IMG/VR virus record: IMGVR_UViG_3300025889_000163
Span: 1-53,175 of that record
DNA from: a virus
Reading direction: 5' to 3' (one strand)
DNA: 53,175 bases
Position numbers and translations under genes: made by a program. Below, piece by piece: positions 1 through 2,471 of this stretch. How positions within the stretch are numbered: the first letter of the stretch is position 1; every line of letters starts with the position of its first letter. The notes under the pieces are model-generated. The model did no database searches, was not told the DNA's origin, and was given only the letters and a program-made list of their open reading frames with translations.

Positions 1-50
1 AAGTTCCAAAGAAATCAATCAACAAACTGAAAGGAACAGGACTTGTTTAA
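1..50 (+). CDS. C-terminal tail of an upstream gene (partial)
   Basis: From base 3 a frame reads VPKKSINKLKGTGLV and stops at TAA 48-50, which looks like the basic tail of a real protein. It would overlap the TTG start of the next gene by eight bases, the spacing seen throughout this genome. The other two frames are possible, one of them stopping at 28-30. The product cannot be named from 15 residues. Confidence 0.35.
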   Translation, partial: VPKKSINKLKGTGLV

Positions 51-726
51 ACATGATCCGATTGACCTTGGATATGATGATTTAGTATCAGAAACCAAGC
101 AAACAGGTAGAAAATACAACACGCCTGATGGCAATGCATATCCATCAATCACAACTGTTTTATCAATACTCAGCGAAGAAGGCATCGCTGAGTGGAGAGC
201 GAGAGTAGGAGATGAAGAAGCTAACAAAATATCTGTCCGTGCTAGTAGAAGAGGTACTGCGGTTCATAGTGTGGTCGAAAAGTATTTGGATAATGATCCC
301 AATTACATGGATGGTTATACACCTGATATCTTTGATTCTTTTCGGACGATTCGCGGAGTTTTAGATGAAAGCATTGGTACAATTTATGGGCAAGAACTTC
401 CGCTCTATTCTGACCATCTACGCGTTGCTGGGCGTGTCGATTGTGTTGCTGAATTTGACGGAAAGATATCAATCATTGACTTCAAAACCAGTCGAAAAGC
501 AAAACAGCCAAAGTACATCGAGTCCTACTACTGTCAAGAAGCAGCATATGCCATTATGTGGGAAGAGCGTACCGGAATGCCTATCACCCAACTGATAACG
601 ATTGTTGCTGTAGACGATATGCATTACTCAGGACCAGGATGTCAGGTATTTGTTGAAAAAAGAGACAAATGGGTACCAAAATTAAGAGACACCATCAATA
701 AATACTACACCAGATTGGAGGCATAA
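43..726 (+). CDS. PD-(D/E)XK (RecB/Cas4-like) nuclease
   Basis: This 227-residue protein carries the ordered motifs of the PD-(D/E)XK nuclease superfamily in its RecB/Cas4-like form: GTAVH at residues 71-75 with the metal-contacting His, Glu118 in a QELPLYS strand, GRVD with Asp133, IDFKTSRK with Asp146 and Lys148, and a final QxxxY-like YYCQEAAYA at 162-170. Such enzymes cut DNA with Mg2+ and occur in phage replication and recombination. The start is TTG at 43, chosen because AAGGA lies 7 bases upstream and no ATG occurs in this frame before residue 89. The next gene begins in its stop codon. Exonuclease versus endonuclease activity, and the partner, cannot be told from the sequence. Confidence 0.8.
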   Translation: MFKHDPIDLGYDDLVSETKQTGRKYNTPDGNAYPSITTVLSILSEEGIAEWRARVGDEEANKISVRASRRGTAVHSVVEKYLDNDPNYMDGYTPDIFDSFRTIRGVLDESIGTIYGQELPLYSDHLRVAGRVDCVAEFDGKISIIDFKTSRKAKQPKYIESYYCQEAAYAIMWEERTGMPITQLITIVAVDDMHYSGPGCQVFVEKRDKWVPKLRDTINKYYTRLEA

Positions 727-1304
727 TGTCCGAGATTATTCGAGCAGCAACAAAGAAATTACACGAAGATCTTGAACTTCAATCATTCAATCAGAAGATG
801 TTTCGCAGCGAGCAAACACGAGATGAGCGACAGGCATATCTCTCGGTACAATATGAAATATTCTCATGTCTTGACATACATGTACCTGCTGAGTTGCGTC
901 GTCTTCCATACATCTGTTATGATCTAGATCGATTGGGCGGCAGAATGAATGTACCACCTGCTGCTCTGGGATATGCAACTCATTTAGAGACTATTTGCGA
1001 GGACAAGCGTCCACACATTTATCTCAACTACATGGGACTGATGTTTGGTGGACAGATTATGAAGCGCAGATATCCAAACTTTCCGATGCAGATTTATGAG
1101 TTTGAAGACCTGCAAGCGGGAAAGCGATATATACGAGAAGAAGTCTGCGAGGATACAGATAATTTCATATTAGAGGTCAAATATGGATTCCGTTGGCAGA
1201 TTGAAATAGCAAAAGAATTAGGAATGTATTTTGAAGTTAAAGACAGAATTGAAGCATATCTCGATGAGAATGCACGAAATGATAAGGAACTTTCCGGAGT
1301 CTGA
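726..1304 (+). CDS. ho: Heme oxygenase (biliverdin-forming)
   Basis: Heme oxygenase opens heme to biliverdin, Fe2+ and CO using reduced ferredoxin or another reductase. The N-terminus AATKKLH places His13 as the likely proximal heme ligand, as in the ATKxxH opening of the family, and the distal helix appears as HIYLNYMGLMFGGQIMKRR (97-115) with the GGQ signature at 108-110. Length (192 residues) fits bacterial and phage enzymes. The family usually reads LGDLSGG here; this protein has MGLMFGG, so the distal Asp is Leu105. The start ATG overlaps the previous stop, and the bilin reductase gene overlaps its 3' end, so the two enzymes are almost certainly co-translated and act in sequence. Phage homologues next to bilin reductases are known from marine myoviruses. 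Confidence 0.85.
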   Translation: MSEIIRAATKKLHEDLELQSFNQKMFRSEQTRDERQAYLSVQYEIFSCLDIHVPAELRRLPYICYDLDRLGGRMNVPPAALGYATHLETICEDKRPHIYLNYMGLMFGGQIMKRRYPNFPMQIYEFEDLQAGKRYIREEVCEDTDNFILEVKYGFRWQIEIAKELGMYFEVKDRIEAYLDENARNDKELSGV

Positions 1305-1866
1305 GTTTATTCCGACCAGTGGTTACAACTGGGAGAATTATCGTTACACCTCACCAAAATTTAGACAAGCACACGTTGAGGTGTTCAATCATGACGCACT
1401 CACTGTACTGCATGTTGTTGTACTTCCACACGTAGAATATCCCACACCCATATTTGGATTTGATGTTGTAGGATCAACGAAAACGAACACTGTTTCTGGT
1501 CTATTTCTTGATTGGTCACCCACTCTGATTGATAAATCCTGGCATGACACATCACATCACGAGCAGAATAGAATACTTCCACCCTGGGCATACATATTTT
1601 CCAACTCGTTTATTGCGCAAAGACCAACAGAATATACTAATCTGCTCACCTTTGCACTCCTATCATTTGATCGATATTTGCGTGAATTAAGATCTGCAGT
1701 GCCTGTTACAAGCAAATTTGACCGACAATACATTATTGACAAGCAGGATAATTACTGCATTGAACAAGCAGCAAACCCACGAACACACGCTGCATTGACT
1801 GCTCATCTATCTTCAGCAGAGCATGCAACGCATTTTATGTCAAATATACTATTTCCGAGACCATGA
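1264..1866 (+). CDS. pcyX: Ferredoxin-dependent bilin reductase, PcyX/PcyA-like
   Basis: This is a ferredoxin-dependent bilin reductase, which reduces biliverdin to a phycobilin. Characteristic segments are YRYTSPKFRQAHVEVF, VLHVVVLPHVEYPTP, IFGFDVVG and LFLDWSP, and the C-terminal YCIEQAANPRTHAAL ending in an ILFP-type tail. Counting from ATG 1264, His50 and Asp67 sit where PcyA has its catalytic His and Asp (my alignment by eye). At about 200 residues it is shorter than PebS of cyanophages and fits the short PcyX type described from marine viral metagenomes beside a heme oxygenase. Possible starts are TTG 1231, ATG 1264, 1270 and 1279, none with a strong Shine-Dalgarno, suggesting translational coupling to ho. 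The exact bilin product needs an alignment. Confidence 0.8.
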   Translation: MRMHEMIRNFPESEFIPTSGYNWENYRYTSPKFRQAHVEVFNHDALTVLHVVVLPHVEYPTPIFGFDVVGSTKTNTVSGLFLDWSPTLIDKSWHDTSHHEQNRILPPWAYIFSNSFIAQRPTEYTNLLTFALLSFDRYLRELRSAVPVTSKFDRQYIIDKQDNYCIEQAANPRTHAALTAHLSSAEHATHFMSNILFPRP

Positions 1867-2471
1867 TATCACTAAATTCACCGAGACCATACGATAATCT
1901 CTACTTCAAACGTCTGACTGTAGATCCCACAATCCTCTCTGACGCGCAATCTTACTGGGAACCGTACTTACCTCTCCCCACACCTGCACTTATTCGATCA
2001 ACACGCATTGCTCCTATTCCTATTCCTTCACTCGTAAACTACCTAGAAACTCATTGCATTGAAATATCACACTATGGTCTATTCTCATTTGGTAATAACT
2101 GGACTACACATTCAGTTCCTCTCGCACACATAGACCACAAACTTGCTAATCTATCTCTTGTACTGCCAATTTCTAATTGTAATTCCTCAACACCAACGAA
2201 TCTGTATTCCTTCACTACAGAACACCAAGTCTCTGCACCATTAAATGCATCACTAAACAAAATAGCAGACAATCCCATTCTATTTGATGCATCTAAACTA
2301 ACACTACATTCTTCCTATATTCTAGACACAATGTATCTGCTTAATATATCCCAAATACATAGAGTGGAGAACTATACGAATGAACCTACAGTGAGAATGG
2401 TACTAAGACTAGCAACTAAGAATAATATAGAATGGTCTGAAGACTGGAGTGTATGGGATCGATTATCGTAA
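1863..2471 (+). CDS. Double-stranded beta-helix oxygenase-like protein
   Basis: A 202-residue protein with the outline of phage 2-oxoglutarate/Fe(II)-type cupins: an HxD motif at LAHIDHK (His89, Asp91), a strand reading LSLVLPISNC, then QIHRVEN (distal His166) and VRMVLRL with Arg178 or Arg182 that could bind a carboxylate. This order matches many marine phage proteins of the double-stranded beta-helix fold, but the match is by pattern only. It overlaps the bilin reductase by four bases, so it belongs to the bilin operon. Its substrate is unknown; a further step on the bilin, or protein hydroxylation, are both guesses. No membrane segment or signal peptide is seen. Confidence 0.45.
   Translation: MISLNSPRPYDNLYFKRLTVDPTILSDAQSYWEPYLPLPTPALIRSTRIAPIPIPSLVNYLETHCIEISHYGLFSFGNNWTTHSVPLAHIDHKLANLSLVLPISNCNSSTPTNLYSFTTEHQVSAPLNASLNKIADNPILFDASKLTLHSSYILDTMYLLNISQIHRVENYTNEPTVRMVLRLATKNNIEWSEDWSVWDRLS

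Follow-up and report, generated by a model that had tools for sequence, protein, structure and literature searches.

The window, by which we mean the whole stretch of 53,175 bases analysed here, is a linear IMG/VR virus record and a partial contig. It is part of a T4-like (Kyanoviridae-related) virus of bacteria, with T4-like baseplate, tail and late-transcription genes, and its gp6 has its closest homologues in Phage C48C1, pelagiphage HTVC008M and Methylophilales phage Melnitz. At the left end of the window four genes form an overlapping series on the plus strand (Table 1). A sequence-only reading had described a unit of three overlapping genes starting with the heme oxygenase (HO). All three ORFs lie where that reading placed them and their overlaps are real, but the unit consists of four genes and includes the exonuclease-like gene upstream.

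Table 1. Genes of the overlapping series at the left end of the window.
Gene	Position	Strand	Basis
Exonuclease-like gene, PD-(D/E)XK	43..726	+	PHROG exonuclease, E 7.9e-67
Heme oxygenase (HO)	726..1304	+	Pfam PF01126, E 9.6e-10
Ferredoxin-dependent bilin reductase (FDBR)	1231..1866	+	PF05996, E 2.5e-22
Third gene, 2OG-Fe(II)-oxygenase-like, predicted double-stranded beta-helix	1863..2471	+	Family profile, AlphaFold2, Foldseek

The exonuclease-like gene ends on the base at which HO starts (TAATG), HO and FDBR share 74 nt when the latter is started at TTG 1231, and FDBR and the third gene share 4 nt (ATGA). The exonuclease-like gene, which may be truncated at its 5′ side by the contig boundary, has syntenic homologues at loci L009-L011 (E 1e-87 to 1e-90) and is outside the bilin pathway itself. 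No T4 late promoter (TATAAATA) was found near the cassette; all six sites in the window lie at ≥18.8 kb, and their number is not above chance. Ferredoxin, alaS and GAF/phytochrome genes were not found in the window, a partial contig of the phage genome, and there was no match to the Aminotran_1_2 domain within this incomplete contig. Just 3′ of the third gene lies a DUF454 membrane protein gene (2528-2935) with its own Shine-Dalgarno. Homologues of it occur on the contigs of only two HO-FDBR loci (L042 and L046), where they are encoded on the opposite strand, and the DUF454 literature that we found mentions no more than increased expression when iron is restricted, in a single bacterium. A link of this gene to heme was considered and dropped on these two grounds.

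An FDBR alignment scanned against IMG/VR matched at least 594 related sites, and HO adjoins FDBR in 72 of the best 80, which were the ones analysed. Pairs of this kind are frequent and have been reported before, as phage hemO-pcyX and as hemO-pcyA/X with alaS (PMC11480375); the sequence-only reading, too, had noted ho plus bilin reductase pairs as known from marine viruses. This recurrent pairing, taken together with the membership of the third ORF in a protein family, argues against the locus being a product of chance. L009-L013 come closest to the window pair, with FDBR identities of 45-47%. Moreover, the window shares its exonuclease with L009-L011 and a ThyX gene with L010 and L011, indicating one phage lineage.

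The surroundings of the pair at other loci showed several conserved arrangements. A DnaK - Hsp20 - ClpS stress cassette is conserved directly upstream of HO-PcyX in IMG/VR phages (L035, L038, L046, L048, L050, L056, L057, L064, L067, L069, L073, L075, L081, L082, L084 and others); ClpS lies less than 100 bp from HO in 25/67 non-redundant loci, and all three genes are upstream in 22. No report of ClpS with a phage heme oxygenase was found in the literature searched. At L012, GroES-GroEL lies just 3′ of the pair, in place of the upstream stress cassette. Two loci (L042:9902-11243 and L045:9189-10570) carry tandem FDBRs beside one HO, the first of the Asp76 (PcyX) type and the second of the Glu76 (PcyA) type. 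In a sister clade (L014, L015, L017, L018, L021 and L022) a conserved protein of ~187-191 aa is encoded immediately 5′ of HO, possibly the source of the RyR-domain matches in our Pfam tally. Similarly, a conserved 313-315-aa gene, probably that behind the TET-associated glycosyltransferase (TAGT) matches of the tally, lies just 5′ of HO in L009 (8501-9448), L010 (3722-4663) and L011 (8484-9425); the window is without it there. Lastly, PcyX-type HO-FDBR pairs were seen in bins named Neomarinimicrobiota, Pirellulales, Halobacteroidaceae and Rickettsiales (L096-L099). They fall within the phage PcyX clade and are probably virus contigs binned with bacteria.

The bilin reductase of the window matches Fe_bilin_red with 80.1 bits and, with the Pfam assignment of its neighbour as a heme oxygenase, bears out the earlier identification of both genes. 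TTG 1231 would be the more likely start, with ATG 1264 as the alternative; we prefer the former because the protein then begins in register with its counterparts in L009, L010 and L012 and because AGGA lies 7 nt upstream. The sequence-only reading had called the enzyme PcyX-like, and our analysis does not support this. A check over 89 FDBRs showed that the window enzyme matches Synechocystis PcyA at Glu76, His88 and Asp105 (E39, H50 and D67 in P0002 numbering), so that the PcyA set is complete. Counting along the 5OWG PcyX sequence puts the PcyX-specific Asp55 in exactly the Glu76 column, where the window has Glu39 and PcyX-type relatives have Asp. Glu76 is reported to be specific to PcyA, absent from PcyX and required for 18-vinyl reduction (Rockwell et al., PMC10151467), and a freshwater phage FDBR without the PcyX-specific Asp55 has been shown to be a true PcyA that makes phycocyanobilin (Wegner et al. 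2024, PMC11480375).

Phylogeny, which the sequence-only reading had proposed as a check, placed the window in a phage clade of its own with L009-L012 (99/98 in a tree of 77 rows). This group lies next to L014-L022, at 88/74 and thus with weak deeper placement, and outside both the PcyX clade that holds phage Mosig (100/99) and the cyanophage PcyA clade (100/99). The window FDBR has a long branch (1.13), and deep branching in the tree is weak; the tree was built without a confirmed phycocyanobilin-making phage enzyme such as that of CB_2. It is conceivable that the reductase is a divergent PcyX and that the cassette makes phycoerythrobilin, given that PcyX (5OWG) is among its PDB matches. However, PcyA is the better PDB match (E 1.9e-16 versus 8.5e-10), the Asp55 position holds Glu, and the Asp-bearing PcyX-type sequences form their separate clade, so that we regard a PcyX as unlikely. 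By its residues and its position outside the PcyX clade the enzyme appears to be PcyA-type, with phycocyanobilin a better predicted product than that of PcyX.

According to its published description, the hemO-pcyA pair of freshwater phage CB_2 (PcyA-star group, Wegner et al. 2024, PMC11480375) resembles that of the window in combining an HO with an FDBR without Asp55. The CB_2 enzyme has been shown to make phycocyanobilin, whereas that of the window is only predicted to, and CB_2 also has alaS as a broken cassette, none being found in the partial window contig. Pelagibacter phage Mosig is likewise T4-like, with adjacent and overlapping HO and FDBR genes and 2OG oxygenases nearby. In contrast to the window, its FDBR is of the PcyX type with Asp at 76, its HO keeps HMGDLSGG where the window has YMGLMFGG, and identity between the two is 26% for HO and 28% for FDBR. 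Cyanophage PcyA shares the enzyme family and the Glu/His/Asp set with the window FDBR, but forms a clade apart, comes from phages with cyanobacterial hosts and had no adjoining HO in any of the five records examined.

The heme oxygenase scored 39 bits against PF01126, for which the curated cut-off is 23. Its proximal heme-ligand histidine is kept (His13), as it is in 74/74 phage HOs. The distal helix, however, reads YMGLMFGG compared with the canonical YLGDLSGG, with Leu at the position of human Asp140 and Asn at that of Arg136. What is new here, and was not noted in the sequence-only reading, is that the distal aspartate is missing from the window HO; it is missing from 15 of 74 aligned phage HOs, a count that includes near-copies, and the remaining 59 have Asp. 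The 15 carry five Trp, three Tyr, three Met, two Ile, one Pro and one Leu. In the HO tree the non-Asp forms group in one clade (SH-aLRT 95), where Asp occurs only in L019 and L022, and in the partner reductases of this clade position 76 is occupied by Glu or Gln.

In human HO-1, Asp140 and Arg136 are part of a network to which oxygen activation is ascribed, and the D140A mutant is reported to be a peroxidase (PMC5623701). The window HO might, therefore, not make biliverdin in the normal way. It could instead be peroxidase-like or heme-binding, or cleave heme at another position, leaving the reductase to act on a different or host-made bilin; the loss of both Asp140 and Arg136 in the window, and of Asp across most of one HO clade, would fit this. 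We nevertheless consider such a departure rather unlikely. The neighbouring FDBR retains the full PcyA residue set. Between the closely related L010 and L011, dN/dS is about 0.20 for HO and about 0.24 for FDBR, so that both genes appear to be under purifying selection and kept functional there despite this HO type lacking Asp. Moreover, alphaproteobacterial hemO-pcyA pairs (Roseomonas/Falsiroseomonas, and in the literature the Bradyrhizobium ORS278 island) also place an HO beside a PcyA-type FDBR, and the Roseomonas-type HOs have no Asp at the distal site either (YVLEGSTLGGQ). These are of a different HO subtype (EGSTLGG), and their FDBRs are only 29-32% identical to that of the window. The distal Asp is common but not universal in HOs. 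Given the selection in L010/L011 and the Asp-less Roseomonas enzymes beside PcyA, we think that the pocket of the window HO, though modified, would still yield biliverdin. More broadly, we tentatively suggest, at somewhat short of an even chance, that throughout this HO clade the distal Asp/Arg network has been replaced by hydrophobic or aromatic residues in enzymes that are still selected, are coupled to PcyA-type reductases and cleave heme by a modified mechanism, perhaps with a different regiochemistry or different reductant needs.

The third gene had no relatives in the phage database, IMG/VR, GTDB genomes or related phage records by single-sequence searches, and no meaningful Pfam, PHROG or PDB sequence match. 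Relatives were found by scanning IMG/VR with a back-translated motif (HID, a gap, then P-I/V-x-N-C), which gave a family of phage proteins of about 170-205 residues. A profile of 13 members, with the window protein left out, recovered the third gene at 44.2 bits (E 4.9e-12, ~5,650 ORFs). Since the family had been chosen by motif, we ran shuffle controls. When only the flanks were shuffled and the motif was left intact, 0/2,000 sequences reached 44.2 bits, the largest score being 34.7; with the motif masked, the third gene scored 13.7 bits against 9.6 for the largest shuffled sequence. The iron ligands H89, D91 and H166 are invariant in 42 family members and R176 (2OG) is present in at least 90%. 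AlphaFold2 modelled the protein with a pLDDT of 78.1 and a pTM of 0.78 using the family alignment, and a pLDDT of 31 without an alignment. In Foldseek the best PDB matches of the model were mostly 2OG-Fe(II) hydroxylases (best E 2.4e-4), and uncharacterised phage proteins were matched too. Proline cis-4-hydroxylase, ColD and Asp/Asn hydroxylases were matched with a Foldseek probability of 1.0 and share the HxD...H...R ligands, but TM-scores are only ~0.4-0.5 and identity ~10%. Of the family members tested, none had a Pfam match above cut-off or a strong PHROG match, and in lying outside Pfam and PHROGs the family also differs from these hydroxylases. The double-stranded beta-helix ligands noted in the sequence-only reading are therefore in place, and alignment and model together suggest a member of an undescribed phage double-stranded beta-helix, 2OG-Fe(II)-oxygenase-like family. 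The family is often found in arrays, with 3-9 paralogues per phage contig on both strands, often overlapping (L196:3269-12923, which has nine, L102:775-3523, L110:1245-4700, L149, L228 and L275).

The same reading had made the third gene part of the pathway, acting on heme, the bilin or a bilin-binding protein. Its 4-nt overlap with FDBR and its predicted oxygenase-like fold are in keeping with this, as are three 2OG oxygenases just upstream of HO-PcyX in Mosig and one overlapping pcyA in Synechococcus phage Sf-CH3. However, the three Mosig neighbours have no significant match to the third gene; the three distant relatives that Mosig does have lie about 15 kb from its HO-PcyX. A single-sequence search found no homologue beside HO-FDBR at the best 80 IMG/VR loci, and a profile search of the complete records that contain L009-L022, the 14 nearest relatives of the cassette, found no family member. 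The alignment behind this profile (A8) contains the window protein and is circular for the window, and was thus used for other records only. Moreover, 2OG families are rare among flanking genes (1/69 downstream; two families upstream, 2/74 each), and the family of the third gene is mostly found in arrays distant from heme genes. The proposed co-occurrence with ho and the reductase is therefore not conserved at the loci searched, an outcome that the sequence-only reading itself had named as refuting its proposal, and for lack of this co-occurrence we reject the third gene as a heme or bilin enzyme; a role in the pathway seems to us highly improbable. We read the ATGA overlap as a sign that translation is coupled rather than that the genes share a function, although it leaves room for a lineage-specific functional link.

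Taken together, we favour, as the fairly probable reading, a phage hemO-pcyA pair that makes phycocyanobilin, followed by a separately acquired, translationally coupled 2OG-Fe(II)-oxygenase-like gene. The sequence itself shows the gene identities, the ligand and catalytic residues, the clade placement and the non-conservation of the third gene; what the enzymes do, what the cassette makes and what it is for we infer. HO would open heme to give biliverdin, iron and CO, with an oxygen-activating pocket that does without the usual network of distal Asp and Arg. The PcyA-type reductase encoded next to it would then take electrons from host ferredoxin and convert biliverdin to phycocyanobilin. The third enzyme, from a family often held in multi-copy phage arrays, would most likely hydroxylate an unrelated substrate (a peptide, sugar or small molecule) and share only the transcript.

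To the phage heme-to-bilin genes, a puzzle in hosts without phycobilisomes, the window locus contributes a PcyA-type pair from a T4-like phage. It also removes a false lead, as the third gene appears to belong to a hitherto undescribed oxygenase-like family of phage proteins and not to form a conserved new step of the pathway. Moreover, a phage clade appears to use HOs without a residue that is critical in the best-studied canonical enzyme. With such Asp-less natural variants, oxygen activation in HO becomes testable.
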